Shown here: piece after piece, positions 39,055 through 61,932 of the stretch | Numbering within the stretch: position 1 is the stretch's first letter | Layout: each line of letters opens with the position of its first letter | Assembly (NCBI GenBank): GCA_040220875.1 | Contig: JAVJVX010000009.1 | Location: forward strand, 248,001-312,000 | Length of the DNA: 64,000 nucleotides | Reading direction: 5' to 3' | Source of the DNA: Alphaproteobacteria bacterium | GTDB lineage: Bacteria; Pseudomonadota; Alphaproteobacteria; JAVJVX01 | Position numbers and translations under genes: made by a program | Notes under the pieces: generated by a model | Seen by the model: only the letters and a program-made list of their open reading frames with translations | Told to the model about the DNA's origin: nothing | Databases searched by the model: none

Positions 39055-39834
39055 TTAGCCCAACCCTTCCATACGTGCACCGAGCCCGGCGATCGCCGCC
39101 TGGGTCCGGTTCTTTACGCCGAGTTTGCGAAAAATGCTTTTCACGTGGACCTTGACCGTCCCTTCCAGCATGGCGAGATCCCGGGCAATCTCCTTGTTGG
39201 AATAGCCGCGCGAAATCAGTTCCAGAACGTCACGCTGCCGTGCTGTCAAAGATGCGTGTCCGCCGACTGAAAGCCCGGAGGGGAGCGATAGCATTACATC
39301 ATGGAAAACGGGGAAAAGCCGACCCGGGAGATATATCTCACCGCTCAGGACCAGATCCGCGGCGCTCAGCAGCACTCGGGCGTTGCTGGATTTAAAGACC
39401 AGCCCTTTCATGCCAGCGGCAATAATCCTGAGTGCGGTCGCGTTCGAGCATGAGCGCACATATACGAGTGTCTTCGCAGCGCCGGCCAACGGGCTCAATT
39501 CACCACGGGGCAGGGCAAAAAATTCCCCGCCGGCTTCGAGGCCCAGAATGACCAGATCGACATTGCCGAGCTGCAGAATCGATGCGGCATCGTAAAGAGA
39601 GTCCGCCTCGGTGATTTCAGGCGTATCGAACCTGTCGGAAAGCATCGCGGCCGTGCCGCGGCGCGCCATCGCGTCAGGATCGATGATCAGGATGGCTGGC
39701 GCGCCTGCCCCGGCTGCCCGACGACCGGTATCCCGTCCCTCGACGCACCGCGCATCTGAAATCCCGGGAGCCGGCGCCCGCCCCGTCGCGACGGGCTCGG
39801 TCTCTTCGCGCAGTTTACGGTTGGGATCAGGCAT
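39055..39834 (-). CDS. LuxR/NarL-type regulator with degenerate receiver
   Basis: A 259-residue response-regulator-like protein. Residues 1-46 are a disordered Ala/Gly/Arg-rich stretch. Residues 47-165 look like a receiver: IIDPDAM keeps acidic residues, but the expected phospho-aspartate after DLVIL is glycine (G98); a conserved lysine (GLVFKSS) remains. The C-terminus is a clear LuxR helix-turn-helix ([22 protein letters not shown] ... in segments, [18 protein letters not shown]). It is probably not controlled by normal phosphorylation. ATG at 39834 has a GGAGG site. No histidine kinase is nearby. It lies tail to tail with ackA. Confidence 0.88.
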
Positions 39835-44228: not shown

Positions 44229-45230
44229 TCAGCTGACCAGATGTCGCGGCCTGCCGGCGATAAATGCTTCGATGTTCTCGCGGGTCGTATCAAGGATACG
44301 ACGTACCGCTTCTTTGGTATTGAAGGCACTGTGGGGCGTGATCAGAACGTTCCGCAAGCGCAAAAGAATATGGTCTGCAAGGAGACTTTCCAGATCATGT
44401 TCCCGGCTAAAGGCCGAGCGCAATAGTTCCGCCTCCTCCCTGATGACCGGCTCTTCCGGCAGGACATCAATCCCGGCCGCGGCCACCCGCCCCCTGGACA
44501 GGGCTCTCAACAGGCTTCGGACATCGACAACGGATCCCCGGGCCGTATTGATCAGCACGACCCCGTCTTTCATGGCGTCAAATTCCCTATCGGCGATCAT
44601 ATGACGGGTTTCCGTCGTTGCCGGCACATGCAGAGACAAGACATCTGCCCGGCCAAGCACATCCATAAATGACGTGTATTCAAAGCCCACCTCTTCCGCC
44701 ACTGCCTCGTCCGGCCTGGTATCATAGGCAAGCACGTCCATGCCGAATCCTTTGGCGATACGCGCCGTATGGCGGCCGATATTGCCGGTCCCGATGATGC
44801 CCATGACCTTGCCCTCGAGATCGAAGCCGGTCAGTCCCGCCTGCGTGAAATCGCCCCGGCGGGTCCGGTCCACCGCCTCGACCAGGCGATGACTGATTGC
44901 GAGGAGCAGCGCAAAGACATGTTCGGCTACCGTATTTTCACCGTAATTCGGAACATTGGTTACCGTAATATCGCCGGCGTGGCAGATGTCGAGATCGATA
45001 TGGTCAAACCCCGTGGACCGGGTTGCAATCAGCTTGAGTCCGGGAAATTGGCTCAGCACTTCCCGGTTCAGGGCCGAATAGATGAAGGTCGAGATGATTT
45101 CCGCGTCGCTGTGCTTGCTGGCCGAATGCTTGTCCAGACGTCCCGCCTCAAAAACCAGATCGTGCTCCCGTTCGAGACTGGCGAAGGCCTCGCGTTCCCA
45201 AGGCTCGATTTCGAAGATCACGATTTTCAC
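44229..45230 (-). CDS. D-2-hydroxyacid dehydrogenase (D-lactate dehydrogenase-like)
   Basis: NAD-dependent enzyme reducing 2-oxo acids to D-2-hydroxy acids. The 333 residues have the Rossmann motif GIIGTGNIGRHTARIAKGFGM (in part), the substrate arginine in INTARGSVVD, the glutamate in LPEEP and the catalytic histidine in ITPHSAF. The NVPNYGENTVAEH segment and length resemble fermentative D-lactate dehydrogenases (LdhA type). The start overlaps the ppsA stop by ATGA, linking pyruvate reduction to PEP/pyruvate metabolism. Other 2-oxo acid substrates are possible. Confidence 0.88.
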   Translation of the reverse strand: MKIVIFEIEPWEREAFASLEREHDLVFEAGRLDKHSASKHSDAEIISTFIYSALNREVLSQFPGLKLIATRSTGFDHIDLDICHAGDITVTNVPNYGENTVAEHVFALLLAISHRLVEAVDRTRRGDFTQAGLTGFDLEGKVMGIIGTGNIGRHTARIAKGFGMDVLAYDTRPDEAVAEEVGFEYTSFMDVLGRADVLSLHVPATTETRHMIADREFDAMKDGVVLINTARGSVVDVRSLLRALSRGRVAAAGIDVLPEEPVIREEAELLRSAFSREHDLESLLADHILLRLRNVLITPHSAFNTKEAVRRILDTTRENIEAFIAGRPRHLVS

Positions 45231-47632
45231 AAGGTACTCTCCGGACGACCGGATTCAGCTTCGGTCCGAGCCACAACTTCCTTGACCGCCAGAAAACTGT
45301 CCGGACTTACCGATATTGAGGTAATCCCCTGGGATACCAGGAAGGCCGCGAATTCCGGGTGGTCGCTGGGCGCCTGGCCACAGAGCCCGGTCGGGATTCC
45401 GGATTTTCGGGCTTTCGACAGAAGATCGCCGATCGCCGCCTTTACCGCCTCGTTCTGCTCATCAAAGAGGCCGCTCAACAGGCTGCTGTCACGATCGACC
45501 CCTAGGATCAGCTGAGTCAGGTCGTTCGATCCAATGGAAAAGCCGTCAAACCGCTCGGCGAATTTTTCCGCCAGCAGGACGTTTGAAGGAATCTCCACCA
45601 TCACATACACATCGAGACCGTTTTTACCCCGCATCAGGCCATTCTCCGCGAGGACCTCGAGCACGTTATCGGCCTCTTCAAGGGTCCGGCAGAACGGAAT
45701 CATGACGACAATGTTGTCGAGGCCGATTTCCTCGCGGGCGCGGCGAACCGCCTGACATTCGAGGGCAAACCCGGCCCGATAGCCTTCGCTGTAATACCGG
45801 CTCGCCCCGCGCCAGCCGAGCATCGGATTCTCCTCCGCCGGCTCAAACGCCTCACCCCCGATAAGTCTGGCATACTCATTCGTCTTGAAGTCGCTCATCC
45901 GGACAATTACGCGATTGGGGAAATGGGCCGCCGCAATACGCGCCATTCCTCGCGCGAGGGTCTCGACGAAATATTCCGACTTGTTGTCGTAAGCCTTTGT
46001 CAGTGCATCTATTTCACGACGCGCCTTTTTATCCTTGAGCGTTTCGAAACGAACCAGCGCCATCGGATGGATCCTGATCTGGGTCCCGATAATGAATTCC
46101 ATGCGAGCGAGCCCGACCCCATCGGTCGGCAATCTCCACCAGCGGAAAGCCGCGGCCGGATTGGCAAGGTTGACCATAATTTTGGTTTCCGTCGCCGGGA
46201 TTTGCCCCAAGTCGATTTCCCGGACGTCATAATCCAGCGCCCCCTCGTAGACGTTTCCTTGCGCGCCCTCGGCGCAGGAAACTGTAACCTCGTCGTCGTC
46301 CTGGAGGGTATCTGTTGCCCCGCTCGCGCCGACGATAGCGGTCAGTCCAAGTTCCCGACTCACGATCGCCGCATGACTGGTACGTCCGCCGTGATCCGTA
46401 ACGATGGCAGCCGCCTTTTTCATGATCGGAACCCAGTCGGGGTCCGTCATGCCGGTAACCAGGACCGCCCCCGGCACGAACTGATCGATATCCCGGGCGC
46501 TGTCCAGCCGACAAACCTTTCCGGTAGAAATGGCGTCTCCGATCGCCAGCCCCGAGACGAGCTTGCGGCTCGTCGTTTTCAGTTTGTAGGACTTGAGCGT
46601 TTGGGCCTCCCGCCGCGACTGGACGGTTTCGGGCCTTGCCTGAACGACAAACAGGTCTCCAGTACGCCCGTCCTTCGCCCATTCCATATCCATGGGCTGA
46701 CCGTAATGCTCTTCGATTACCACCGCCCATCGGGCCAGCTGCAGGATTTCCTCATCGTTGAGGACGTAGGCGGACCGCTCCTTCATCCTGGTAGAGACCA
46801 GCTTTGAACTGCCTTTGCCGCCCTTCGCATAGATCATCTTCTGCGCCTTGCCACCAAGCGACTTCTCGATGATGGGCTTGAGATGGGAATGGCTCAGCAG
46901 GGGCTTGAAGACGTGGTATTCGTCGGGATCGACCATGCCCTGAACAACGGTCTCACCCAGTCCCCAGGCTGCATTGATCAGCACACTGCCGGGAAAGCCC
47001 GTTTCTGTGTCTATGGAAAACATGACGCCCGACCCTGCCTTGTCGGCACGCACCATCTCCTGCACGCCGACCGACAAGGCCACGTCCATGTGATCGAAGC
47101 CGTGGTTTCGCCGGTATATGATCGCCCGATCGGTAAAAAGAGAGGCAAAACATTTCTTGCATGCCTTGAGCAACGCGGCGTCCCCCCGCACGTTGAGAAA
47201 TGTCTCAAGCTGTCCGGCGAAGCTTGCTTCCGGCAGATCTTCCGCCGTCGCGCTGCTACGAACCGCCACGCTTCCAACCCTGTGGCCGCTTCGTTCCGTC
47301 ATATCGTGATAGGCGTCGAGGATGGCATCCGAAAGCGCCACGGGGAAATCTGCCTCCAGAATCAGCCTGCGAACGGATTTCCCGACCGCGGCGAGATTGC
47401 TGCCATCCTCTTTCAAGGCCCCGAGCCGCTCGGCCAGGACCGGCTTGAGTTCATTTGCCTCGAGAAACTCCCAATAAGCCGTCGCTGTTGTCGCAAACCC
47501 GCCGGGAACCCTGATGCCGGCCTCGCCAAGATGCGCAACCATTTCCCCCAGAGAAGCGTTCTTGCCGCCGACAACGGCAACGTCAGCCCGGGAAATGTCG
47601 GAAAACCATCGCAGAAGATCGCCGTTACCCAT
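45227..47632 (-). CDS. ppsA: Phosphoenolpyruvate synthase
   Basis: Converts pyruvate, ATP and water to PEP, AMP and phosphate. From ATG 47632 (MGNGDLLRWFSDISRADV) it has 801 residues, the family length. N-terminal ATP-grasp part: VGGKNASLGEM, VRSSATAEDLPEASFAGQ; phosphohistidine domain: DHGGRTSHAAIVSRELG; C-terminal barrel with GSNDLTQLILGVDRDS and CGQAPSDHPEFA. The last replaces the usual CGQxPS loop cysteine intact. The start lies 8 nt inside the end of the GH65 gene; the frame open further upstream is not used. Its presence in a low-oxygen operon suggests pyruvate recycling. Confidence 0.95.
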   Translation of the reverse strand: MGNGDLLRWFSDISRADVAVVGGKNASLGEMVAHLGEAGIRVPGGFATTATAYWEFLEANELKPVLAERLGALKEDGSNLAAVGKSVRRLILEADFPVALSDAILDAYHDMTERSGHRVGSVAVRSSATAEDLPEASFAGQLETFLNVRGDAALLKACKKCFASLFTDRAIIYRRNHGFDHMDVALSVGVQEMVRADKAGSGVMFSIDTETGFPGSVLINAAWGLGETVVQGMVDPDEYHVFKPLLSHSHLKPIIEKSLGGKAQKMIYAKGGKGSSKLVSTRMKERSAYVLNDEEILQLARWAVVIEEHYGQPMDMEWAKDGRTGDLFVVQARPETVQSRREAQTLKSYKLKTTSRKLVSGLAIGDAISTGKVCRLDSARDIDQFVPGAVLVTGMTDPDWVPIMKKAAAIVTDHGGRTSHAAIVSRELGLTAIVGASGATDTLQDDDEVTVSCAEGAQGNVYEGALDYDVREIDLGQIPATETKIMVNLANPAAAFRWWRLPTDGVGLARMEFIIGTQIRIHPMALVRFETLKDKKARREIDALTKAYDNKSEYFVETLARGMARIAAAHFPNRVIVRMSDFKTNEYARLIGGEAFEPAEENPMLGWRGASRYYSEGYRAGFALECQAVRRAREEIGLDNIVVMIPFCRTLEEADNVLEVLAENGLMRGKNGLDVYVMVEIPSNVLLAEKFAERFDGFSIGSNDLTQLILGVDRDSSLLSGLFDEQNEAVKAAIGDLLSKARKSGIPTGLCGQAPSDHPEFAAFLVSQGITSISVSPDSFLAVKEVVARTEAESGRPESTL

Positions 47633-50114
47633 TTTGCGCCGACCTCCCTGAGGCCAAAGCCGTCCCCGGTGGTTTCCGGTTTTCGTCCCGGTCCCGCTCT
47701 TCCGGCCGCAAAAGCCGGAATTCGTAGCTATCACCGGGTGCCACGTCGCGAAACCGGCCACGATAGGCAATGGTAATGGGATTCGCGGTAAAGGCACGGC
47801 TTGCGATCCGCAAACGCTCGTGATTGGCCTCCACATCGAGCACCTGGCGACGGTAGCGCAGGCGCACTTTTACGCCGCCGAGATTCTCGGGGAGGCCTGG
47901 GTCGAAATGCAGGACGTTCGCACGCATCTCGATCCCGAGGAAGCAGCGCTGGATGAGATCGATCGCGCCCGCCATCGCGCCCACATGTATGCCCTCCCGC
48001 GTCGAGCCTCCCTGAATATCGGAAATGTCGCTCTCGAGCGCCCGCTGGAAAAGGTGCCACGACCGTGGACGGTCGGACCGCGCCAGCACCCAGGAATGAG
48101 CCACCCGGCTCAGGGTGGACCCGTGGGACGTCCGGGACAGGTAATATTCCACATTGCGCGGGATCGTATCGTACTCGAACGGATAGCCGAGCTGCTCGAA
48201 CAGCAAACGAAGCTCATCGGCCGAGAAAAGATAGAAAAGCATCAGCACGTCGGCCTGCTTGGAAACTTTGTAACGGTTTGGTGTATCTCCCTCAGCCTCC
48301 AGAATCCGGTCGAGGCGCTGTATGTCGCCGTATTTTTTCTCGTACGCCCGCCAGTCGAACTCGGCCAGATCGCCGTAGCCGTCGAACTGGCTGATAATGC
48401 CGCCGTCGTGGAACGGAACCCTGAGCTTGCGGCTGATGACCTGCCACTGGTCTATCTCATCCAGGCTGAGGCCGATTTTTTCGCAAATCCTCTCGCACTG
48501 CACTTTGGGAAGCAGGTCGAGCACATCGCAGGTGCGTGTCAGGACCCAGGCCGCCATGACATTGGTATACGCATTATTGGCGAGCCCGCCTTCCTGTTCG
48601 GGATCGGCATCCGGATAGGCCGTATGATATTCGTCCGGCCCCATGACGCCCTTTATCTCGTATCGGTCGATCGCGGCGTTATAGGTCGTAAGGCTGGCGA
48701 GAAACCGGGCAATTTCAAGCATCATTTCGGCACCGTAGAAGTACAGAAACTCGTGGTCGTCGGTCGCCTGATGGTATTTCCAGATGCTGTAGGCGATGGC
48801 GGCGTTGATGTGCCGTTGACGGTAGGTGTTGTCGGGCAGCCAGCGGCCCGAGCGCGGATTGAGATGAACCCGCTGGCTCTCTTCTCGACCGTCGCTGCCG
48901 CTTTGCCAGGGGTACATCGCCCCTTCGTAGCCCGCCTCTTGAGCGGACCGGCGCGCTTCGGGCAGCCGGCGGTAGCGATAGCGCAACAGCGCACGAGTCA
49001 GCATCGGCATCCGAAGAGTCATGAATGGGAAAATGAATACCTCGTCCCAGAAGATGTGTCCGCGATAGGCTTCACCATGCCAACCCCGGGCCGGCACCCC
49101 GGCATCCCGATCAACGGAATGAACGGACACGGTTTGCAGCAGATGAAAAACGTTCACGCGCAGATTAAGGGCGGTGTCTTCCGTCAGATGGTCCTCGAGG
49201 ATGATATCGAATTCGTCCCAGAGGTGATTCCAGGCAAGTGCGTGGGCCGAAAAAAGTGACTCGAACCGACCGGTATGCGCCAGAGTGCGCTTCGCTTCGA
49301 GACCCGGCTCCGAGATCGCCTGATCGAGCGAGCTGTGGAAGGCCACGATCTTTTCGACTGTAATGCTCTCTCCCTTCTTGATGGGATGGCTGATGTCCTG
49401 TCGGATCTGGTCTTTGAGGATTTTGACCTCGCGCTTACCCCCGATCTCGGCATTATTCTGGTAGAGCCGCGTACGGGCCGCCTGGGAGAATTGGATAAGG
49501 GACTGGGTGGTTCGTCCCCTGAGAAAGATGACATCTTCACCCAGATGATGCAGATCGGTCGTCTCCAGGTGCTGGCTGGACAGGTCCCGGTAACGCGCCA
49601 CGCCTGCGTTGGTGATCGCAGCATCGAGCACCGAGCGCACCGTGAGAACGCCCGCCCAGTCTTCGGCCGAGATTTCCACTGAAAGGGCGGCCAGATTGGG
49701 GTTCGCCATACTGACGATGCGGCGCTCGAACCAGCGCGTGGTGCGTCCGTCCGTGTCACGAAAGCGAATGTTCCGGGTGAGCAGGCCCGCCTTCAGGTTC
49801 AACTCCTGCCGGAACGACAGAATTTCGACTTCGTCGAGCCGGAACCAGTCACCATTATCGATTCGGAAGGTCAACCTCAGCCAGTTGGGGAAATTGACGA
49901 GATCCTCGTTCTCCACTTCGCGATTATCGACTTTGGACGTCAGACGGTTATAGCCGCCCGCGAGATAGGTGCCGGGATAGTGAACATTGTCGGCCGTGCT
50001 GTCCGGCGCGGCGCCGCGTGTCGCGAAATACCCGTTTCCCAACGTGCAGAGCGTTTCGCGCAACCCTTCCTGGTCGGGCTCATACTTGTCGTACCCAAAA
50101 CACCATTGATCCAT
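47625..50114 (-). CDS. GH65 disaccharide phosphorylase (trehalose phosphorylase-like)
   Basis: Inverting alpha-glucoside phosphorylase of 829 residues: trehalose, maltose or kojibiose plus phosphate give glucose and beta-glucose 1-phosphate. It has the N-terminal beta-sandwich (1-270), linker, (alpha/alpha)6 barrel with RGWHGEAYRGHIFWDEVFIFPF (in part), general acid E495 in GVMGPDEYH, and the phosphate-binding TSHGSTLSR and STREGIHVGAMAG. Adjacent trehalose genes favour trehalose, or trehalose 6-phosphate, as substrate. The gene begins right after the stop of the mutase/phosphatase fusion (TGAATG), and that fused beta-phosphoglucomutase is the usual partner consuming beta-glucose 1-phosphate. 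Hydrolase members exist but lack the phosphate site. Confidence 0.9.
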   Translation of the reverse strand: MDQWCFGYDKYEPDQEGLRETLCTLGNGYFATRGAAPDSTADNVHYPGTYLAGGYNRLTSKVDNREVENEDLVNFPNWLRLTFRIDNGDWFRLDEVEILSFRQELNLKAGLLTRNIRFRDTDGRTTRWFERRIVSMANPNLAALSVEISAEDWAGVLTVRSVLDAAITNAGVARYRDLSSQHLETTDLHHLGEDVIFLRGRTTQSLIQFSQAARTRLYQNNAEIGGKREVKILKDQIRQDISHPIKKGESITVEKIVAFHSSLDQAISEPGLEAKRTLAHTGRFESLFSAHALAWNHLWDEFDIILEDHLTEDTALNLRVNVFHLLQTVSVHSVDRDAGVPARGWHGEAYRGHIFWDEVFIFPFMTLRMPMLTRALLRYRYRRLPEARRSAQEAGYEGAMYPWQSGSDGREESQRVHLNPRSGRWLPDNTYRQRHINAAIAYSIWKYHQATDDHEFLYFYGAEMMLEIARFLASLTTYNAAIDRYEIKGVMGPDEYHTAYPDADPEQEGGLANNAYTNVMAAWVLTRTCDVLDLLPKVQCERICEKIGLSLDEIDQWQVISRKLRVPFHDGGIISQFDGYGDLAEFDWRAYEKKYGDIQRLDRILEAEGDTPNRYKVSKQADVLMLFYLFSADELRLLFEQLGYPFEYDTIPRNVEYYLSRTSHGSTLSRVAHSWVLARSDRPRSWHLFQRALESDISDIQGGSTREGIHVGAMAGAIDLIQRCFLGIEMRANVLHFDPGLPENLGGVKVRLRYRRQVLDVEANHERLRIASRAFTANPITIAYRGRFRDVAPGDSYEFRLLRPEERDRDENRKPPGTALASGRSAQNG

Positions 50115-51665
50115 TCAGGCCTCCCCCGCGCCAGTTTCCGCAAGGAACTTCAGAAATCGGGCTACCTCATCCGTGTCCGGCAGGGCGTAATCGGCGGCCG
50201 TTTGCCTGTCCTCCTCACCCCGGACCGCGATCGACATGCCAGTCCCTGCAAGGACCCGAAACGCATCCTCATCCGTGATATCGTCCCCTATATAGAGAGG
50301 GAGTATGGCAGATTGGTCAGAGTCAAGCCGCTCCACCAGCCATTCGACCGCACGGCCCTTGTCCCACCGGATATCAGGCTGAACCCTGAAGACCTTTTTT
50401 CCGTGGCCCATGTGGAGCCGGGGGAACTCCGTGAGGGCTTCCTCCACGATTCTTTCAATGCGGGGAACATCTTGCACCCCGGCCCTTCGATAATGCACTG
50501 CAACAGAGAAACGTTTGCGCTCGACGGCGTGCCCATCGATATCGGTCAGGCGCGCCCGGAGCTGTGCCTCGATTTTGTCCAGGTCAGGCAGGAATTCCAC
50601 GCCTTTTTCCAGCCTTTGCTTCCAGCCGCCCGGGCCCTCAATCTCAAACCCATGGCTGCCCGCGTAGTACAGTGAGTTCAGTTGCACAAGCCCCCTGAGG
50701 ATCGCGACATCGCGCCCGCTCACGACGGCGACCCGGCAGCGACGACTCAGGGTCTGCAGGGCCTGCCGCATGTCCGCCGGCAGAAAGGCCCGCCGATAGT
50801 CCTCAACGATGGGTGTCAGCGTGCCATCGTAATCGAGGAAGACCACGGGGACGTGGCCGGCCAGACGACCCCGGATCTCATCCAGATGGGAGGTGGCAAG
50901 GGGCCGCGTGGAGAGCCGCTTTATTCCGATTTCGCCGGCCCGGCTGCAGGTTAGCTCGGCAACATCATTGATCACGATATCGGCACCCGCTCCGGCCAGT
51001 TGCGCTGCGTTCCCGCCGCGGTCAACTCCGATGACCAGACCGAAGCCGCCAGCACGTCCGGCCGTGACACCCGCGATCGAGTCCTCTATGACCGCTGTCT
51101 TCACGGGCGGGATCCCGAGCCGCGCCGCCGCCTCGATCAGCATGGCAGGATCTGGCTTGCCCGGCAGCCCGAGCGACGCCGCCTCATCCCCGTCCAGCCG
51201 TACCGCGAATGATTGCAGCACCCCGGCGCTTCGCAGGACAGCCGCCGCGTTGCGGCTTGCCGAAAAGACCGCTTTCCTTACGCCCGCTTTCCCGAGCGCC
51301 TCCATGAAGGCCATTGTTCCCGGAAAAACTTTCGCGGCGTTTTCGTCGAGCCAAGCCCTGAATATTTCGTTCTTCCGATTACCGAGACCGCAAATCGTCT
51401 CGGCTTCCGGACCATCGGTTTCAAGACCCCAGGGAAGCGAAATGCCTCGCGCGGCGAGAAAGCTTTCCACGCCATCGTAACGTGGCTTCCCATCGAGATA
51501 CGACTTGTAATCCTGATCCGGATCGAAGGGGTGAAGGGTGACGCGATATCGCGCGGACCAAGATTTCAGAAATTCGTCGAAGAGCCGCTGCCAGGCAGCG
51601 GCGTGTGCTTCGGCCGTGTCGGTAACGACGCCATCCATGTCGAACAGCACCGCCTGAACCGCCAT
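50115..51665 (-). CDS. Fusion: beta-phosphoglucomutase + trehalose-6-phosphate phosphatase
   Basis: Two HAD enzymes in one 516-residue chain. Residues 1-240 are beta-phosphoglucomutase: FDMDGVVTDTAEAHAAAW with D9/D11, the long cap, and AVIEDSIAGVTAGRAGG. Residues 265-516 are an OtsB-type phosphatase: VVFLDYDGTLTPI with D278/D280, VAVVSGRD, AGSHGFEIEG and YIGDDITDEDAF. The first would turn beta-glucose 1-phosphate into glucose 6-phosphate, the second trehalose 6-phosphate into trehalose. I start at ATG 51665, directly before the HAD motif; an ATG at 51758 adds 31 residues and has no ribosome site. With the following GH65 gene this equals the domain order of mycobacterial OtsB1 (Rv2006). Confidence 0.9.
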   Translation of the reverse strand: MAVQAVLFDMDGVVTDTAEAHAAAWQRLFDEFLKSWSARYRVTLHPFDPDQDYKSYLDGKPRYDGVESFLAARGISLPWGLETDGPEAETICGLGNRKNEIFRAWLDENAAKVFPGTMAFMEALGKAGVRKAVFSASRNAAAVLRSAGVLQSFAVRLDGDEAASLGLPGKPDPAMLIEAAARLGIPPVKTAVIEDSIAGVTAGRAGGFGLVIGVDRGGNAAQLAGAGADIVINDVAELTCSRAGEIGIKRLSTRPLATSHLDEIRGRLAGHVPVVFLDYDGTLTPIVEDYRRAFLPADMRQALQTLSRRCRVAVVSGRDVAILRGLVQLNSLYYAGSHGFEIEGPGGWKQRLEKGVEFLPDLDKIEAQLRARLTDIDGHAVERKRFSVAVHYRRAGVQDVPRIERIVEEALTEFPRLHMGHGKKVFRVQPDIRWDKGRAVEWLVERLDSDQSAILPLYIGDDITDEDAFRVLAGTGMSIAVRGEEDRQTAADYALPDTDEVARFLKFLAETGAGEA

Positions 51666-51783
51666 GTCCGTCCCGTGGCGCACATCGTCGCCGACACCCG
51701 CTCCGGCCACTTCGCATACCGACCTTTCGTATGGGTCGTCCTGCCCCTCCGTGACCATGCGTCAATACAGCGCCACTGACATC

Positions 51784-51990
51784 TCAGGAGTTTTCCAGCA
51801 GGAAGGAAATTTTGCCGTTGATCCGGTACCGGGTAATCTTGCCATTTTCAACGCTGGCTTCCATTTCCTTGATGTAGATCGACTTGATGTCGCGGACCGA
51901 TTTCCCGGCCTGATCGACCGCCTTCTGCGCAGCATCCTCCCAATTCTTATCGGACTGCGCCAGCACCTCGATGACTTTCAGCATTGTCAT
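51784..51990 (-). CDS. Dodecin-like protein without canonical flavin residues
   Basis: Small beta-alpha-beta-beta protein of 68 residues; dodecins assemble as hollow dodecamers. The start MTMLKVIEVLAQSDKNWEDA follows a GAGAGG site; the frame open to 52017 is not used. Compared with flavin-binding dodecins, the stacking Trp (WFEV segment) is replaced by DIKSIYIKE and the Gln of the YQV strand by Arg (ITRYRING). This pattern resembles the calcium-binding dodecin subgroup (mycobacterial Rv0379-like), from memory. First gene after the FNR-type promoter and about 118 nt before the fusion gene. Confidence 0.85.
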   Translation of the reverse strand: MTMLKVIEVLAQSDKNWEDAAQKAVDQAGKSVRDIKSIYIKEMEASVENGKITRYRINGKISFLLENS

Positions 51991-52029
51991 ATCGGCCTCT
52001 CTTTTTATGAAACTCAAGAGAACTTTGTT

Positions 52030-52072
52030 ACTGTAACGGCCGGCTGCGGGTTGGGACTTTGATTCAAATCAA
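52030..52072 (-). promoter_or_regulatory. FNR/FixK-dependent promoter of the dodecin operon
   Basis: TTGAT-TCAA-ATCAA (52059-52072) is a perfect FNR/FixK box. On the minus strand a -10-like TACAGT (52035-52030) follows, giving a start near 52023, so the box centre is at about -42.5, essentially the class II activator position (-41.5). The leader to the dodecin ATG is about 33 nt. Confidence 0.75.
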
Positions 52073-52173
52073 GGTCTCCCGTTTCAACGCCTGGAGGCGG
52101 GGTTGCCCCCGGCAGATAAGACGGGGTCGACGTTCTCCGCTCGAGACCGTGAATCCGGGGAACCCGGGGAGGT

Positions 52174-52187
52174 TTGATGTCAATCAA
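52174..52187 (+). promoter_or_regulatory. Second FNR/FixK box, before the antiporter
   Basis: TTGAT-GTCA-ATCAA is again a perfect match, 85 bp before the antiporter ATG. A TATAGT at 52198-52203 could be its -10, which would put the box near -29.5, overlapping the -35 region and more fitting for repression. A weaker -10 further down would give activation. Direction of control is open. Confidence 0.65.
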
Positions 52188-52271
52188 ACGGCCATTCTAT
52201 AGTCGGGCATTCGGGACTGCCGAGTATGCCCATCCCTGCCGAGACGTCCGGCATACCGGAAGCAAGGCACA

Positions 52272-53468
52272 ATGACCGGTAACGACATCACACTCATGAC
52301 GCTGGGCGGGTTACTGCTTCTCGGCCTCGCCACCGACGCATTTGCAAGATACACACCGCTCCCGCGCGTGACGCTCCTGGTCCTGTTCGGCGTGGCGGTC
52401 GGTCCAACAGGCTTGGACCTGCTGCCCGTCGAGATTGACCACTGGTATGCACTCTCGGCCGATATTGCACTCCTGATGATCGGATTCCTTCTCGGTAGCA
52501 AACTCTCGCTCAAGAACCTGAGAAAGACCGGCTCGCAAGTGCTCTGGATTTCATCCCTCGAAGTCATCGGTGTTGCGGCCATCATGTTCGCCGGCCTCGT
52601 TGCCCTTGGCTTCGATGCGACCATAAGCCTTCTGCTGGCGGGGATAGCCCCTGCCTCCGCACCCGCCGCTATCGCAAATGTTGTCGACGAGGTGCCCCAC
52701 AGGGGACGCTTCACCGAATTGCTGCTTGAAGTCGTCGCGGTAGACGATGCATGGGGTCTTATCGCCTTCAGCGTATTCCTTGCCTGCGCCCAGGCCATGG
52801 CCGGCGGCGACATGCTGAGCGCCCTCAGCTATGGCGGCTGGGAGTTGGGCGGCGCGCTTCTGGTCGGCGCTGCCATCGGTCTTCCCGCCGCACTTCTGAC
52901 CGGGCGTGTCGCCCCTGGCCAGCCCACGCTGACGGAAGCACTTGGCGTGGTGCTATTTTGCGGAGGCCTCGCGCTCTATCTCGAAGTTTCCTTTCTTCTG
53001 TCCGCCATGATCGCGGGGACAATCATCGCAAATTTCGCGCACCATCATGAGCGGCCGTTTCATGAAATCAGCAATATCCAGTGGCCATTCATGGTGCTGT
53101 TTTTTGTCCTCGCCGGAGCCTCACTTCATTTCGAGACACTTCTTGGCGTCGGCCTTATCGGGGCAGCATATATATTTTTGCGGGTCGTCGGGCTTACGAG
53201 CGGAGCCTGGCTCGGTGCCCGGATATCGGGATGCGAACCGGCCCATTGCCGGTGGATTGGCCTTGCGATCACACCACAGGCTGGCGTGGCTCTTGGCATG
53301 GCGCTTGTCGCAGCCAGCCGATTCCCCGAACTCCGAGATCAGATCATGCCTGTCATCATCGGCACCACAGTCATCTTCGAGCTTGCGGGACCGATTCTTA
53401 CCCGGCTTGCGATCCTTCGCGCGGATCAGGCGCAACCCCCTCGAGCACGGAAACCGGAAAGCGGGTGA
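52272..53468 (+). CDS. CPA-family cation/proton antiporter
   Basis: Membrane antiporter of 398 residues with about 11-12 segments and no RCK domain. It resembles the Kef/NapA group: ALLMIGFLLGSKLS, SAPAAIANVVDE, and the acidic pair VVAVDDAWGLIAFS that should bind the ion. Na+ or K+ export for H+ is expected; the ion is not resolved. It is divergent from the dodecin operon with an FNR-type box in front. Its last 71 nt overlap the end of convergent treY. Confidence 0.88.
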   Translation: MTGNDITLMTLGGLLLLGLATDAFARYTPLPRVTLLVLFGVAVGPTGLDLLPVEIDHWYALSADIALLMIGFLLGSKLSLKNLRKTGSQVLWISSLEVIGVAAIMFAGLVALGFDATISLLLAGIAPASAPAAIANVVDEVPHRGRFTELLLEVVAVDDAWGLIAFSVFLACAQAMAGGDMLSALSYGGWELGGALLVGAAIGLPAALLTGRVAPGQPTLTEALGVVLFCGGLALYLEVSFLLSAMIAGTIIANFAHHHERPFHEISNIQWPFMVLFFVLAGASLHFETLLGVGLIGAAYIFLRVVGLTSGAWLGARISGCEPAHCRWIGLAITPQAGVALGMALVAASRFPELRDQIMPVIIGTTVIFELAGPILTRLAILRADQAQPPRARKPESG

Positions 53469-56142
53469 GCAGATGACCGACATCAAGCACGTCATCCGCC
53501 TCATGGATCTGGCCGGTCACGACATCCTCTAAAACAAGAGGCCGCGCCAGGCGGGGCAGACTAACCACCGTTCCTTCCCAGGCCCTGGCTGGTACTAATG
53601 GCCGATCGGTCCCGCGCAGCATCGAAAACGCAAGGCGCGGCGCGACGACAATGGCGAGAGCACCGCCCCGCCGCCGTGCAAAAGCGATCACATGACCCGC
53701 ACGGGTGCCCGTGACTTCAAGCGGCACATACGCGCCCTCAGCGAAAAGCGCCGGGTGGCGGCGGCGCAAGGCCAGACCAGCACCGGTCAGAGCCATTTTG
53801 GGCCGGCCGTCAACCCAGCCCGACACCAGAGCCTCGGGCGCCGCCTGGGAAAGCCTCGCGAGGCAGCCCGCACGGCGGTCGAAATCAACCTGGCCCCGAT
53901 TATCCGGGTCAACCAGACTCACATCCCAGAATTCCGTCCCCTGGTAGAAATCAGGCACGCCGGGCGCGATCAATTTGACCGCGAGTTGCGATAACCCGTT
54001 CAAAGCGCCCGCCCGCCAGATCGGCTGCGCGGTCGCGACGAAATCCTCCAGAAATCCGGCGGATGCTTCAAGGGAGAGCGCTCGCTCGACAAAATTGCAG
54101 ACGGCCGCTTCATAGGCGACATCAGGGGCAAGCCAGTTGGTCCGCTGTTTGGCCTCGCGCGTGGCTTTCTTCATGTAGCGCACCATCCGCCGACACAACT
54201 CGGCCAGGTTGTGCGGATCATGCCGCCACGATGAGCCCTCGACCAGCGGAGCCGGCCAGGCGCCCAAAAGGGACTGATAGAAGAGCCATTCGTCGTTGCG
54301 TGTCGGAGCCCGGCCGCAAGCCAGGTCCCGGGCATGGGGAGAATTCTGGTCGGACCAGCGGGCCACCGCGCACGCCCAGTCTTCTGGCATCTCACTCAGG
54401 ACATAAAGCCGCGCACGGGCATCCTCTCCCCGCTTGGTGTCGTGGGTCGATGTTGCCGACAGGCCGGCAGGTTGCTCACGACCACGTTTGGCCATGGTGT
54501 CATGGAAATGTGCGAGGGGCGCGCCGAAACGGCCGGGCGCGCCGCCAACCTCGTTGAGGGCGATAAGCCGGTTGAAGCGGTAGAAAGCCGTGTCCTCGAC
54601 CGATTTCGCCATGACCGCCCCTGTCGTCTGCTGGAAGCGTATCGAAAACGCGGCAACCCGGCCCGGGTCCATGTCTGACCGGGCATCACGGCAAACGAGG
54701 TTCTTGACAAATTCGACAGCACGGCCGTCTCCCGTCTCATGTCTCTCGCGGACATTTCGGGCGGCGCTGTCCATCAGCGCCCGATCTGCCCGCATCGCGC
54801 CGCCCGCGTCTACATAAGTTCGATAAACCGGCAGCGCCGCAGCCAGCGCGACGATCGCCCGGCGCAACGTGTCGGCGCCCAGATCACGGGCCGACGCATC
54901 CTCAAGCGCGATCTTCTGCGCCATCTCGGTAAGTGTCTCGAGCTCGGCCGCGAGATTATAGCTAAAGACTTCCCGCTTGGTTTCGCCCACCACCTCTGCA
55001 TAATCTTTTTTCTCACCCGAGAAATCTCTATAAGCAGCAGTCATCGCCTTTTCGCCGCCCGGCCACACGAGAACCCCGGCCAGGGGCGCGATAAACTCAT
55101 ATCCCGTAGTGCCTGCGACCGGCCACTCAGAGCGGAGTGACTCGTCAGGGCCAAGAATTTTCTCTACCAGAACGTAGGCAGCACCGGCGGGGAAAATTGT
55201 TTGAAGCCGCGCCAGATACTCACGGGGATCGGCCAGCCCATCCACGTGATCGACCCGAACGCCGGCAACATCTCTGGCAGACAGAAGACGGCCCAGCAGG
55301 GCGTGCACCGCGTCGAACACGGCCCGATCCTCCACGCGCAGGCAAATCAAATCGGTAATTTCAAAGAACCGGCGATACACCAGGTGCTCGCGCCCAAGTC
55401 GCCAGTCCGCGAGCCGCCAGGTTTGAGCTTCGTGCACGGCATGGAGGCGATCGCGTTCCGCTGAGATGGTCGAAGCGGCCACCTGCAACGCCGCTCCCGT
55501 TGCCGGCGTTTCCGCCAGCCTGGCGAGCCGGCGCTGAAGCGGGGGTGCCCCGGCCGGGCCCGCCGCCCGAAAAAGCGCCCCCAGTTCTCCCAGCATCGTG
55601 TTGCCACCGGCCTCGAGCACCAGGGCGTAGGAAGGTGGCGTAAGGGGCAACCGGCTGTTCCCATGGGTAAACAGGAAGCGTCCCGTCCTGGCGTCGAACG
55701 AGACCCCCAGTTGCCCTGCCTCGAGAGCTTCTCCGTAGGGTATCGGAAGAACTGGCAGGATCAGCCGGCCCCCGGACCAGTCAATATCGAAGAAACGGGC
55801 ATAATCGCTCGCCTCACCCCATTCCAGAACCGACTGCCACCAGGGATTGTTTTCCGAAGTCCCCATATGATTGGGGACGAAATCGACGATCATCTCGAGC
55901 CCGGCCGACGTCAATGCCCGGGAGAGACGTTTAAAGCCCGCCTCGCCGCCAAGCGCCGGCTCCAGCTTCGTGCAATCGCTCACATCATAGCCGTGCTCCG
56001 ATTCGGGACCCGCTGCGAAAATCGGCGACCCATAGAGATGCGACACGCCAAGCTTCTGCAGATACGGCGCGAGGCCAGCGGCCACCTCGAAGGTTACGCC
56101 GTCGCGAAATTGCAGCCGGTAAGTAGCCACGGGCACGGTCAT
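53398..56142 (-). CDS. treY: Malto-oligosyltrehalose synthase
   Basis: GH13 enzyme turning the reducing end of a maltodextrin into a trehalose unit. The 914 residues show ATYRLQF at the start, DFVPNHMGT, the nucleophile region GVRVDHVDGLADP, the acid in LVEKILG and STHDTKRGEDARARL, all TreY marks. Its start overlaps the malQ stop by ATGA; it is the last gene of the glgB-glgX-treZ-malQ-treY operon. The conserved C-terminal LLTRFPVSVLEG lies inside the antiporter overlap, so the overlap is real coding on both strands. Confidence 0.95.
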   Translation of the reverse strand: MTVPVATYRLQFRDGVTFEVAAGLAPYLQKLGVSHLYGSPIFAAGPESEHGYDVSDCTKLEPALGGEAGFKRLSRALTSAGLEMIVDFVPNHMGTSENNPWWQSVLEWGEASDYARFFDIDWSGGRLILPVLPIPYGEALEAGQLGVSFDARTGRFLFTHGNSRLPLTPPSYALVLEAGGNTMLGELGALFRAAGPAGAPPLQRRLARLAETPATGAALQVAASTISAERDRLHAVHEAQTWRLADWRLGREHLVYRRFFEITDLICLRVEDRAVFDAVHALLGRLLSARDVAGVRVDHVDGLADPREYLARLQTIFPAGAAYVLVEKILGPDESLRSEWPVAGTTGYEFIAPLAGVLVWPGGEKAMTAAYRDFSGEKKDYAEVVGETKREVFSYNLAAELETLTEMAQKIALEDASARDLGADTLRRAIVALAAALPVYRTYVDAGGAMRADRALMDSAARNVRERHETGDGRAVEFVKNLVCRDARSDMDPGRVAAFSIRFQQTTGAVMAKSVEDTAFYRFNRLIALNEVGGAPGRFGAPLAHFHDTMAKRGREQPAGLSATSTHDTKRGEDARARLYVLSEMPEDWACAVARWSDQNSPHARDLACGRAPTRNDEWLFYQSLLGAWPAPLVEGSSWRHDPHNLAELCRRMVRYMKKATREAKQRTNWLAPDVAYEAAVCNFVERALSLEASAGFLEDFVATAQPIWRAGALNGLSQLAVKLIAPGVPDFYQGTEFWDVSLVDPDNRGQVDFDRRAGCLARLSQAAPEALVSGWVDGRPKMALTGAGLALRRRHPALFAEGAYVPLEVTGTRAGHVIAFARRRGGALAIVVAPRLAFSMLRGTDRPLVPARAWEGTVVSLPRLARPLVLEDVVTGQIHEADDVLDVGHLLTRFPVSVLEGVAPDPREGSQAG

Positions 56143-58007
56143 TGCCGAGGCGGTCTTTCTGCACGAACCGCCGCCACGATCGCCTGATAGAAAGGAGACC
56201 GCCCCAGGTCCTCGATGTCCAGCGGCAGGCGGCGGCGCCAGTTGGGATATTCGTCATGGGTCCCGGGCACGTTGACGGGCGCCGTCTCGCCACAAAGATC
56301 GTCAACCTGAACGCCCAGCAAGTAGGCCGGTGTGCGCGCTAGAAAGCGGTGGATATCGGCCGCCTGTTGCGGGCCGAGGGTGCTGAAACCGTCGCCGGAC
56401 AATTGCGAGCAAATGCCCTCTTCCGTTAGCCGTCTGACGAGCGCCTCGCGGTCTCGGCGACGCTCTCCCCGGCGACGGACTGATTCCGCGTTATCGATCT
56501 GGCCGATCGATCGAAGGAGGTGAATATCCTCTTCCCCCCACCAGGCGAGCAATGGCGGCAAGTCGTGTGTCGACACGCTGGCGAAGCCTTGCTGCACATA
56601 GGACCCGGCAGGGTGAAATCCCTTCCTGTCCCGGGCGAAGTACAAAATTTCCGAAGACAGGATGTGAGCCCGCCGCAAAATATCGCTGAATCCTTTTGGC
56701 ACAGTGCCGAGGTCTTCACCGACGAGAAGCGTCCGGCTCGCTGCCGAAACGTCAGCCAGAACTTCCAGCATTCCCGCGAGCGGATAGAGAACGTAGGCAC
56801 CCTCATCCGGCGTGCGGCCTTCCGGAATCCAATAAAGGCGATAGATATTCATCGCATGATCGATGCGAAGGGCACCCGCATGACACGTCGCGCGCCCGAT
56901 CAGAGTGCGGTAGGGCATCATATCTTCCTGTCGCAGCACGCGTGGTGACATGGGCGCCAGACCCCAGTCCTGCCCGGCCTGAAAAAATGCATCGGGGGGC
57001 GAACCGATGTGGGCATCCCGCACGACCAGGTCCGGCCGTGACCAGGTGGCTGACCCGTCCGGCGCCGTTCCCACGGCAAAATCGAGATAGAGCCCGATGC
57101 GCATCCCGGCATCGCCGGCCCGGCGCATGGCTTCAGCCAACTGTGTGTCCGCGATCCATTGCAGCCAGAGGTGAAAGCGGATATCCGCCTCGTGATCCTG
57201 TGCGAACGCCGTGACTGCGGCGCTGTCGGCAGCCTGAAAAGGGCCGGGCCAGCGATGCCAGCCGGCCCCTTTGCCCTGATCCGCCATATGGTGAGACAAC
57301 GCTTCGAAGCACGCATGAGCCCAAAGCATTTCACTGCCTTCTCGGACGAAGGCATTGAAATCCGACACCGAATTTTCATTCTTGAAGTTTGGCCAGGCCC
57401 GACGCAGAACGCGGAACTTGAAGTCCGCCACCGCGCGATAGTCCACGCTCTGACCCGCCCGGAGACTTGAGACTACTTCCGGCCGGAAATCTGGCGGCGT
57501 TGAAAGGCCCGGCACGCGATCGATCGCAATGTAAAGCGGATTGAGAAATCTGCGGCTCGACGGGGAGAACGGACTGCACCGGTCCGGGTCTGCACTGAAC
57601 AGGGCGTGCAGCGGATTGACACCGACAAAGTCGGCCCCATCCTGGGCGGCGATTTCAGCCAACCGGGCAAGATCCTCGAAATCGCCGATCCCGTGGTTCC
57701 GCGCCGATCGCAGGCCATATAACTGGCAGGTGATCCCCCAGGCGCGATCTCTTTCCAGCCAGTCCGGCAAAAAGCATTTCAGCCCGGCGGGCGCAACCAT
57801 ACGGTCCGGCTGCGGGGATGGGGCTTGTGCGAGGGCGCGCTCGATATCGGCCTTGGTTCTTGCCGCCACGCCCATTGCTTCGAGCACCTCTCTGACCACT
57901 GCGTCACTGACCCGACGGATCCGGCCCCGATCGCTCAAATAACTACGCTGCACGCCATAAGCCGACGCCAGACGCGCCAGAGTGGACGTGTCGCGCGCGC
58001 CCGTCAT
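56139..58007 (-). CDS. malQ: 4-alpha-glucanotransferase (amylomaltase)
   Basis: GH77 enzyme shuffling maltodextrins, releasing glucose and lengthening chains for phosphorylase or TreY. The 622 residues show WGITCQLYGLRSARNHGIGDF, the nucleophile in ALRIDHAMNIYRLYWIPEG, LVGEDLGTVP with the acid, and VSTHDLPPL. ATGA overlaps with treZ before it and treY after it. Placement between treZ and treY suggests it feeds chains of suitable length to TreY. Confidence 0.94.
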   Translation of the reverse strand: MTGARDTSTLARLASAYGVQRSYLSDRGRIRRVSDAVVREVLEAMGVAARTKADIERALAQAPSPQPDRMVAPAGLKCFLPDWLERDRAWGITCQLYGLRSARNHGIGDFEDLARLAEIAAQDGADFVGVNPLHALFSADPDRCSPFSPSSRRFLNPLYIAIDRVPGLSTPPDFRPEVVSSLRAGQSVDYRAVADFKFRVLRRAWPNFKNENSVSDFNAFVREGSEMLWAHACFEALSHHMADQGKGAGWHRWPGPFQAADSAAVTAFAQDHEADIRFHLWLQWIADTQLAEAMRRAGDAGMRIGLYLDFAVGTAPDGSATWSRPDLVVRDAHIGSPPDAFFQAGQDWGLAPMSPRVLRQEDMMPYRTLIGRATCHAGALRIDHAMNIYRLYWIPEGRTPDEGAYVLYPLAGMLEVLADVSAASRTLLVGEDLGTVPKGFSDILRRAHILSSEILYFARDRKGFHPAGSYVQQGFASVSTHDLPPLLAWWGEEDIHLLRSIGQIDNAESVRRRGERRRDREALVRRLTEEGICSQLSGDGFSTLGPQQAADIHRFLARTPAYLLGVQVDDLCGETAPVNVPGTHDEYPNWRRRLPLDIEDLGRSPFYQAIVAAVRAERPPRQ

Positions 58008-59851
58008 TTCGCCTCCGCCTGCGGACCGCCGTCGTCATTTAGGAAAACGAGCACCGCCCAGCCAGGAAGATCCCCCGCCCCAACCGCCCGGGAAAGGCCT
58101 GGCGACGATTCGAACAGCAGCCTGCCCCCACCGCCGGCAAACGCCACCGGGCCCGGGTCGTCGCTCAAATTGGCGAGCATTCTCAGTTCCGCACCGTCCG
58201 CCAATTGCCAGACCACGCCGAGCGTCCGGTCATCACGCGTCTCGGCGCGTCCGGCGTGCCCGTCGATACCGGCCAGCCGGGGCGTGATCTCGCCCCGTCG
58301 AATTGCGAGGAGCCGGCTGACAAGCTCGTGCCGCGATCGGCCCCGTTTCGAGGCCAGCCTGGTCCAGTCGAGTTGAGACGTGCGAAAGGTCGATTCGGCA
58401 TTGGGGTCTGGAATACGATCCCGGTTCGCTTCGTCTGCAAACCGCGCGAAGCGGCGAAATTCCCGCCGGCGCCCTTCCCGCACCGCCTCCGCCAGTTCTC
58501 CCTGAAAATCGGTAAAAAAACCGAAGGATCGGGTCTCTCCATATTCCTCGCCCATGAACAGGAGCGGAATATGCGGCCCCAGTATGAGGAGTGCCAGAAG
58601 TGCCTCTATCACCTGCGCTGGCGCGAGGGTCACGAGCCGTTCGTTGAAGGCCCTGTTGCCGATCTGGTCATGGTTCTGCAGAAAATTTATGAAGGTCGTC
58701 GGCGGCAAATGGGCGGATGGAACACCCCTCGGAGAATTATCCCGGAAACGTGAAACCTCGCCCTGATAGACGAACCCTTCGGCCAGGCTTCGGGCCAGCT
58801 TTTCCACCCGCCCGGCGGCATAATCAATGTAATACCCCTCTGTTTCACCTGTCGCGATAACATGGGCTGCGTGATGGAAGTCATCATTCCATTCAGCCGT
58901 GTAATATCCCGGCGCTTCCACCCGATCCTTTTCGTGGAACCGCGTGAGGTTGCGATCATCCTCCGTCGTCAGGTGGATATGCCGATCGGTGATCCTTGTC
59001 CTGACGAGACGGCCGATCTCATCGAGAATATTTACTTCCGATACGTCCTCGATCTGGTCAATTGCATCAAATCGCAGGCCGTCAAACCGGAATTCTTCCA
59101 GCCAGTAAAGAGTATTATCCACGAAATAGTCGCGAACCGCCGGGACATCATAGGCGATGGCACCACCCCAGGGCGTCTGGCGTTCAGGATGGAAAAATGA
59201 CGGCGCGTAATGGTGCAGGTAATTCCCATCCGGGCCGAAGTGATTGTACACGACATCCAGGATGACCATCAGGCCGCGCTCGTGGGCCGCGTCAACAAGC
59301 TCTTTCAGGGCGTCCGGACCGCCATAGACATGATGGGGCGCATACATGAGAACACCGTCATATCCCCAGCCCCGGTTTCCCTCATATTGCGCAACCGGCA
59401 TCAGTTCGAGCGCCGTGATGCCGGTGGCGGCCAGGTGATCGAGCCGCTCGAGCACAGCCTTGAAGGTGCCCGAGCCCGTGAAAGTGCCGACGTGAGTCTC
59501 GTAGATCACGGCCTCGGGCCAGGGACGGCCGGGCCAATCCCCACACCGCCACTCATAGGCGAGAGGCTCCACCAGAAGAGACGGACCGTGGACGTCCCCC
59601 GCCTGTGCGCGGGCCGCCGGATCGGGCACCAGCATTCCGTCCGGCAGGGAAAATGCGTAGCTGTCGCCGCTTGCCATCTCTGGGATGGCGCACTCGAACC
59701 AGCCATCGCCGACCGGATTCATCGCCAACCGGCTTCCCTTGGCGACAAGCCAGAGGCTCTCGACACCGGGCGCCCACAGGCGGAACCTCGCACCACCCCC
59801 ATCAAGAAGCTCACTCCCCCAAGACTTTCGATAGGCAAAGCGCGCACTCAT
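58004..59851 (-). CDS. treZ: Malto-oligosyltrehalose trehalohydrolase
   Basis: Releases free trehalose from the TreY product. The start at 59851 ([16 protein letters not shown]) overlaps the glgX stop by ATGA and gives 615 residues; the open frame to 60103 is not used. There is an N-terminal E-set domain (RFRLWAPGVESL), then the GH13 barrel with DVVYNHFGPDGNY, FRFDGLRFDAIDQI (nucleophile), HLTTEDDRN (acid) and LQNHDQIGN. These variants separate TreZ from GlgB. Confidence 0.95.
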   Translation of the reverse strand: MSARFAYRKSWGSELLDGGGARFRLWAPGVESLWLVAKGSRLAMNPVGDGWFECAIPEMASGDSYAFSLPDGMLVPDPAARAQAGDVHGPSLLVEPLAYEWRCGDWPGRPWPEAVIYETHVGTFTGSGTFKAVLERLDHLAATGITALELMPVAQYEGNRGWGYDGVLMYAPHHVYGGPDALKELVDAAHERGLMVILDVVYNHFGPDGNYLHHYAPSFFHPERQTPWGGAIAYDVPAVRDYFVDNTLYWLEEFRFDGLRFDAIDQIEDVSEVNILDEIGRLVRTRITDRHIHLTTEDDRNLTRFHEKDRVEAPGYYTAEWNDDFHHAAHVIATGETEGYYIDYAAGRVEKLARSLAEGFVYQGEVSRFRDNSPRGVPSAHLPPTTFINFLQNHDQIGNRAFNERLVTLAPAQVIEALLALLILGPHIPLLFMGEEYGETRSFGFFTDFQGELAEAVREGRRREFRRFARFADEANRDRIPDPNAESTFRTSQLDWTRLASKRGRSRHELVSRLLAIRRGEITPRLAGIDGHAGRAETRDDRTLGVVWQLADGAELRMLANLSDDPGPVAFAGGGGRLLFESSPGLSRAVGAGDLPGWAVLVFLNDDGGPQAEAK

Positions 59852-61932
59852 GACGGACTTGAAGCCAGTAGAAACAAGGACCGTTCGGGAAGAGAAAAAA
59901 TTTCTTGCGGATGAAAAAACGGCTCGTCCGGATTGATCCGGCCCACTGCCGTATCCACCAGAAGCCGCCAGCGACGGCCCGTTTCTGAAGGCGGCAGGCA
60001 AAAATTTGTTGTCGTCGTGCTGCCGTTGATCAGAACGATCGCCTGGTTCAGGGAGGCCTCGCTCAAAAGGAGCCCTATTGTGTCGACTTCCGGGTCGTGC
60101 CAATCGTCATCATTCATCTCAGACCCGTCAGGCTTGAGCCAGATCACGTTTTTCAGATTTTGTTCGCCGATTTCCTGCCCGTGCAGGAATTGTGTCTGTC
60201 GCAGAAGTGAAAAATTCTTCCGGAGTTGGATAAGGCCTGACATAAACACCGAAAGTGCCAAGTCACGATCCGTGTTGCCGGTCCAGTTCATCCAGACTTC
60301 CTCGTTGTCCTGACAGAAGGCGTTGTTGTTGCCGCCCTGACTGCGACCGAGTTCATCCCCCATAAGAAGCATGGGTGTTCCCTGGGACAGCAATAGCGTG
60401 GCCATGAGATTGCGGCGCATCCGGTCACGGAGGTCGAGAATTTTGGGGTCGTCCGTGGGTCCCTCTGCGCCGCAGTTCCAGCTTCGATTGTCGTCCTGTC
60501 CGTCCTGATTGTCCTCCAGATTGGCTTCGTTATGCTTTTCGTTATAGGAGACAAGATCCTTCAGTGTGAATCCGTCATGGGCGGTGATGAAATTTACGCT
60601 CGCCCACGGGCGACGCCCGCTATGGTCGAAGAGATCGGCCCACCCCAAGAGACCACGGGCGAGATCGGGCATCGCGTTCTCCTCTCCACGCCAGAAGTCC
60701 CGCACGCTGTCGCGATATCGCCCGTTCCACTCGGCCATGCCCGGCGGGAAGCGTCCCAGTTGATAGCCATCGGGCCCGACATCCCAGGGCTCCGCGATCA
60801 ATTTGACATCCGAAAGAATCGGGTCCTGCTTGACGGCTTCAAAAAACACTGCCTGATTGTCGAAGGCCTCGCGCTCCCGGCCAAGCGCGGTAGCGAGGTC
60901 GAAGCGGAAACCGTCCACATGGGCCTCCTCGACCCAGTAACGCAGCGAATCCATGACCATCTGAAGGACCCGCGAGTTATTCAGATTAAGCGTATTCCCG
61001 CAGCCCGTGACGTCGTAGTAATAGCGGGGATCGCTATCGAGAATGTAATAACTGGCGTTGTCCGCTCCCCTGAAGGACAGGGTGGGACCAAGGTGATTGC
61101 CTTCGGCGGTGTGATTGTAGACGACGTCCAGGATTACTTCTATTCCGGCCTCGTGAAGGCGACGCACGACAAGCTTGAATTCGTGCAGATCACTGTGCGG
61201 CGAGATATAGCGTGTAGCCGGCGCAAAAAACCCGACCGTGTTGTAGCCCCAGTAATTGACGAGGCCTTTCTGCACGAGATAGCGATCGTCAAAGAAAGCC
61301 TGGATCGGCATCAGCTCCAGCGCGGTGACGCCAAGCTTGACAAGGTGATCAATCACGGCCGGATTGGCGAGCCCGGCGAATGTTCCCTGAAGGGACTCCG
61401 GCAGATCCGGGTGACGCGCTGTCAGGCCCTTGAGATGGGCTTCGTAGATAATGGTCTCCGCCCATGGCCGTCGCGGCCGCACCTCATCCCCCCAGACTAC
61501 GGACGGGTCGATAACCACGCATTTCGGCATGACGAAGGCCGAGTTGCGTCGATCCATCGAAAGATCTTCGCGCGGATGGCCGATTCGGTAGCCGAACGCT
61601 GCATCATGCCAGCGCAGGTCGCCGTGATAGGCCTTTGCATAAGGGTCCAGCAGCAGCTTGTTGGAATTAAACCTGTGACCGGCAGTCGGCTCATACGGCC
61701 CGTGTGCGCGGTAGCCGTATAACTGGCCGGGGCGCACGTCGTGCAGGTAACCGTGCCACACCTCATGTGTGTATTCCGGCAATTCGATCCGCTCGAGCTC
61801 ACGCCGTCCGTTCCGGTCAAACAGACAGAGTTCGACCTTCCGGGCATTTGCCGAGAAGAAGGCAAAATTAACACCGGACCCGTCCCATGTCGCACCGAGC
61901 GGGTAAGGCCGCCCTTCACTCAAGCGCCTCAC
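59848..61932 (-). CDS. glgX: Glycogen debranching enzyme
   Basis: Isoamylase-type GH13 enzyme that hydrolyses alpha-1,6 branches of phosphorylase-limited glycogen, releasing short maltodextrins. The 694 residues start at GTG 61932, overlapping the glgB stop (GTGA). CBM48 domain at 1-130 ([18 protein letters not shown]), then [44 protein letters not shown] and [15 protein letters not shown]. Its products are substrates for TreY and MalQ in the same operon. Also classed with TreX. Confidence 0.95.

Follow-up and report, generated by a model that had tools for sequence, protein, structure and literature searches.

The region between a dodecin gene and a divergent cation/proton antiporter gene contains two perfect copies of the box TTGAT-N4-ATCAA, and raises the question of which regulator may use them, and with what effect on the genes at either side. 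The genome (2.54 Mb, 99% complete) is that of a deep-branching alphaproteobacterium. Unless a contig is named, positions refer to the window, the whole 64,000-nt stretch of DNA analysed (C9:248001-312000).

Organization of the dodecin/antiporter gap

A pattern scan of the window found the perfect box at 52059-52072 (box 1) and 52174-52187 (box 2) and nowhere else, in agreement with an earlier note on this DNA, which had reported both copies and had seen none in the other gaps that it scanned; the next best sites of the window, with 1 mismatch, lie at 540 (coding) and at 51869, within the dodecin gene. Given a dodecin ATG at 51987, with AGAGAGG just upstream of it, the gap spans positions 51988-52271. 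Its elements and the flanking genes are listed below.

52003-52017, minus strand: third, degenerate copy of the box (2 mismatches) within the leader of dodecin, doubtful as a functional site
52030-52035, minus strand: TACAGT, predicted -10 hexamer for dodecin transcription, located 23 nt beyond box 1, with the start expected at about 52023
52059-52072, minus strand: box 1, TTGATTTGAATCAA read towards dodecin; predicted FNR site at about -42.5, the activator position
52174-52187, plus strand: box 2, TTGATGTCAATCAA; predicted FNR site; it overlaps the predicted -35 element of the antiporter
52174-52203, plus strand: TTGATG-N18-TATAGT, a predicted sigma-70 promoter facing the antiporter, with the start expected at about 52210
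51784-51987, minus strand: dodecin (67 aa; Pfam Dodecin, 3.8e-24), with which the unit begins
50115-51692, minus strand: beta-phosphoglucomutase-like HAD protein fused to trehalose-phosphatase; the start may be 51758
47625-50114, minus strand: GH65 enzyme; nearest solved relatives are trehalose-6-phosphate hydrolase and kojibiose phosphorylase
45227-47638, minus strand: PEP synthase (pyruvate, water dikinase); NCBIfam equivalog cut-off passed
44229-45230, minus strand: D-2-hydroxyacid dehydrogenase; among solved structures, a fermentative D-lactate dehydrogenase is the closest
41494-44199, minus strand: P-type ATPase, Ca-transporting (IIA) group, with which the unit ends
52272-53468, plus strand: cation/proton antiporter (CPA2-like), single divergent gene

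The first junction of the unit, behind dodecin, is a gap of about 90 nt; all later ones, down to the P-type ATPase gene, are short or overlapping. Within the unit PEP synthase stands out, as it fits poorly with a fermentation function. The 3' ends of the antiporter gene and of treY overlap by 71 nt (53398-53468).

Promoter geometry of the two boxes

In E. coli, 19 of 23 FNR-activated promoters carry the site at -41.5 +/-4, and sites at FNR-repressed promoters range from -125.5 to +1 (PMC3688515). Class II geometry was scored as the presence of a -10 hexamer (A at position 2, T at position 6, at least four matches out of six) 22-23 nt beyond a box. Box 1 has such a hexamer, TACAGT, at 23 nt; the start, predicted 7 nt past it at 52023, places the centre of the box at -42.5, in agreement with the earlier note, and leaves a dodecin leader of about 36 nt. 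This arrangement resembles that of E. coli class II promoters, where the site lies near -41.5 (-42.5 at ydhY and fnrS) and the -10 about 22-23 nt beyond (PMC3688515); the target genes differ, and the E. coli starts are mapped whereas those described here are predicted.

Box 2 has no -10 hexamer at 22-23 nt in either orientation. Its first six bases are the -35 of TTGATG-N18-TATAGT, one of two promoter-like sites found in the gap region versus 0.3 expected, and its centre falls at about -29.5. Since box 2 covers the antiporter -35, repression is proposed rather than activation: FNR bound at this site would most likely block the polymerase, the sign of the effect being deduced from position alone.

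The main rival to repression is a helper role of box 2, according to which both boxes serve the dodecin promoter, box 2 from about -157.5, and the antiporter is outside FNR control. The boxes lie on the same face of the helix because they are 115 bp apart, or about eleven helical turns, and this spacing favours a helper role, as does the absence of a class II -10 from box 2 towards the antiporter. Far upstream FNR helper sites are uncommon, however, and the exact overlap of box 2 with a promoter-like -35 facing the antiporter is better matched by repression; a helper role is thus considered unlikely. A small RNA encoded in the gap was also considered and rejected, the one Rfam match (15.9 bits versus a threshold of 45) being taken as chance.

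An FNR-type regulator

The genome encodes one FNR-type regulator, featuring four cluster cysteines and an ETVSR recognition helix, whose gene (C5) is preceded, about 80 nt upstream, by a perfect box at C5:704948; no class II -10 accompanies this box. In alignments with solved FNR chains (5cvr, 5e44 and relatives), the CRRCEVSANC stretch and the Cys in TRVCRLP match cysteines of these chains, and the protein displays the features of FNR/FnrN, namely an N-terminal C-X2-C-X5-C, a fourth, central cysteine and an E-x-x-S-R helix. The best profile scores of the protein are 148 bits for FixK, 136 for FnrL and 111 for Fnr, none reaching the respective cut-offs of 300, 300 and 228; these matches assign the protein at the family level only, and the putative FNR subtype is named from its cysteines. 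The earlier note had left the choice between FNR and FixK open: because of the cysteines and of ETVSR, and with different helices in the other Crp-family genes, the FNR-type assignment is retained and the FixK-type one abandoned.

The other clear Crp-family genes of the genome are two, with recognition helices VVHVNR and KVHVSR. One Crp-family gene, at 4839-5714 of L030 (C5:245000-255000), shows one in-frame TAG between the sensor and the DNA-binding parts, and is either decayed or affected by a sequencing error.

Near-identical sites may be read by different members of the family (PMC4999443), and the presence of these two genes suggests that the boxes could be used by another Crp/FNR-family regulator, FixK- or DNR-like, with a kinase or nitric oxide as its input and no direct role for oxygen. 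Both helices differ from that of the FNR-type protein, however, and one of the two genes is interrupted, so that such a regulator appears quite improbable.

Perfect boxes in the genome

A genome-wide pattern scan found the perfect box at 8 places, versus about 0.5 expected by base composition (Poisson P ~7e-8); the reversed pattern, used as a control, was found at 0 places. Boxes were sorted manually as intergenic or genic on the basis of mechanical ORF calls: 5 of the 8 perfect places are intergenic, versus 3 of the 39 places with a single mismatch (Fisher P 0.002), the remaining 36 falling within genes. The three other perfect boxes look non-functional: two fall within genes, one for an acyl-CoA dehydrogenase and the other nrdR, and the third covers the stop codon of a NUDIX gene. 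A class II -10 is present at 3 of the 5 intergenic boxes and at 0 of the 3 others, against a background of 1.6% per orientation (P ~4e-4 for three matches among ten); the hexamers are TACAGT at 23 nt for dodecin, GATAAT at 22 nt for a NarL-like gene and TAGATT at 23 nt for the glgE unit.

When the dodecin/antiporter gap was shuffled 20,000 times by preserving dinucleotide frequencies, at least one box was obtained in 4 shuffles and two boxes in 0, and two perfect boxes 88-114 nt apart were found in only 3 of 385 genomes of the class. That the boxes are chance matches or functionless relics is therefore hardly tenable, in spite of the three copies that lie within or bordering coding sequence, and a chance origin was rejected on the shuffles and the genome counts, the recurrence of class II geometry at other boxes arguing in the same direction.

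One of the intergenic boxes, at C9:317833, lies outside the window, between divergent glgE-like and otsA-like genes. It is associated with a second unit, whose window part is:

53398-63902, minus strand: treY-malQ-treZ-glgX-glgB, window part of the glgE-headed unit; FNR box outside the window, at C9:317833

These genes run on past the window into treS-maltokinase and the glgE-like gene, the name glgE deriving from its position and from weak matches to alpha-amylase. The apparent gap between treS and glgB reads as the N-terminus of GlgB, so that seven genes, about 17 kb in all, make up the unit behind the box. The stretch framed by box 1, box 2 and the glgE box comprises about 30 kb, with genes for storage sugar, pyruvate and ions. 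Also within the window, NhaA-pta-ackA has no box at up to 2 mismatches.

The box at C7:155725 is located upstream of a NarL/ErdR-like response regulator gene; with this box and its GATAAT, the regulator may constitute a second level in the FNR response. In the stretch L027 7294-11457 (C7), its gene has those of a histidine kinase (NahK/ErcS-like) and of an NtrC-like activator as neighbours. A paralogue of the NarL/ErdR-like regulator is found in the window at 39055-39834.

Terminal oxidases and the core FNR regulon

In alphaproteobacteria, FNR is known chiefly as the switch for high-affinity respiration and haem. A single COX1 homologue, found in an aa3-type locus, represents the haem-copper oxidases of the genome, and neither a cbb3 nor a bd oxidase was found in it; the usual oxidase targets of FNR are thus missing. 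FNR control of the aa3 locus was rejected, as only sites with 2 mismatches are found there. The core alphaproteobacterial FNR regulon includes the cbb3 oxidase, hemN, uspA, ompW and the regulator itself (PMC2908626). Of these, the regulator is preceded by a box of its own here, and cbb3 genes are not targets; hemN and uspA were not seen among the genes beside perfect boxes, the neighbours of boxes being the genes viewed. The core set of cbb3, hemN, uspA and ompW is at least partly absent as targets.

Genes resembling Rieske-type ring-hydroxylating oxygenases, as judged by eye, are many for a 2.5-Mb genome (L031, L032, L034, L037, L049, L056, L069 and L071).

A predicted low-oxygen switch

Oxygen control of a unit of carbohydrate, pyruvate and ion genes had been predicted in the earlier note, and gains support here: with an FNR that has the needed residues, a box at its own gene and class II geometry at two further boxes, it is the best reading of the data. 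Both boxes are probably sites of the organism's own FNR, by which the six-gene unit would be activated, the antiporter repressed and the glgE unit driven. From what is read in the sequence, namely the boxes and their rarity, the promoter geometry, the regulator residues, the gene families and the oxidase inventory, we infer binding, the cluster, start sites, the sign of control, operon read-through and physiology as follows. As oxygen falls, FNR would take up its [4Fe-4S] cluster, dimerise and bind both boxes. At box 1, at about -42.5, it would bring about class II activation of the six-gene unit from the dodecin promoter; at box 2, covering the antiporter -35, it would most likely repress. 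With box 1 activating and box 2 repressing, a fall in oxygen would raise the expression of one divergent unit and lower that of the other. The glgE box, outside the window, would similarly drive glgE-treS-glgB-glgX-treZ-malQ-treY. The outcome would be that, at low oxygen, a cell lacking a high-affinity oxidase draws on its trehalose and alpha-glucan stores and disposes of electrons through lactate.

The predicted regulon thus appears to deal mainly with storage sugar and fermentation. As judged from sequence data, it is a genuine FNR switch that is out of the ordinary in its targets but not in its mechanism: the box, the regulator and the promoter logic are known, and the target set and the aa3-only setting are new. 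Only tentatively, it may be proposed that in this deep-branching alphaproteobacterium, equipped with aa3 alone, FNR has lost its respiratory targets and turned into a dedicated switch for drawing on trehalose/alpha-glucan stores and for D-lactate formation, the antiporter responding in the opposite direction. A small genome keeping FNR and perfect sites in the absence of those oxidases would show to which targets the sensor can be re-assigned. Dodecin and the GlgE/trehalose pathway would gain a testable setting, oxygen limitation, and the divergent gap would represent a compact two-way promoter.

Comparison with other systems

In Pseudomonas aeruginosa, anaerobic survival by pyruvate fermentation depends on Anr. 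Common ground with the genome described here is an FNR-family regulator and a dehydrogenase that, among solved structures, comes nearest to a fermentative D-lactate dehydrogenase. In the present genome, however, the dehydrogenase gene stands in one unit with trehalose/glucan genes, and the pta-ackA of the window has no box. The FnrL regulon of Rhodobacter sphaeroides (PMC2908626) has the same TTGAT-N4-ATCAA box, the same [4Fe-4S] type of regulator, activation as well as repression, and sites common to divergent genes. Unlike in the FnrL and core regulons, the boxes are found here at genes for trehalose/glucan enzymes, PEP synthase, a lactate-type dehydrogenase, dodecin and an antiporter.

Elsewhere in the class, a box was found at 0 of 30 dodecin genes; a general link between dodecin and FNR was therefore rejected, and the link looks lineage-specific. 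No paper combining dodecin, FNR and anaerobic was found in the literature collection searched. The antiporter occurs in 6 of 384 other genomes of the class, none with the dodecin-gap context, and a scan of named genomes found one distant relative, likewise outside that context. At the HAD-GH65 loci of other class members, single boxes with 1 mismatch are present about 160 to 310 nt upstream in 2 of 10 cases (L097:10607 and L089:1304, in other genomes of one family), and are only suggestive of a link with FNR.
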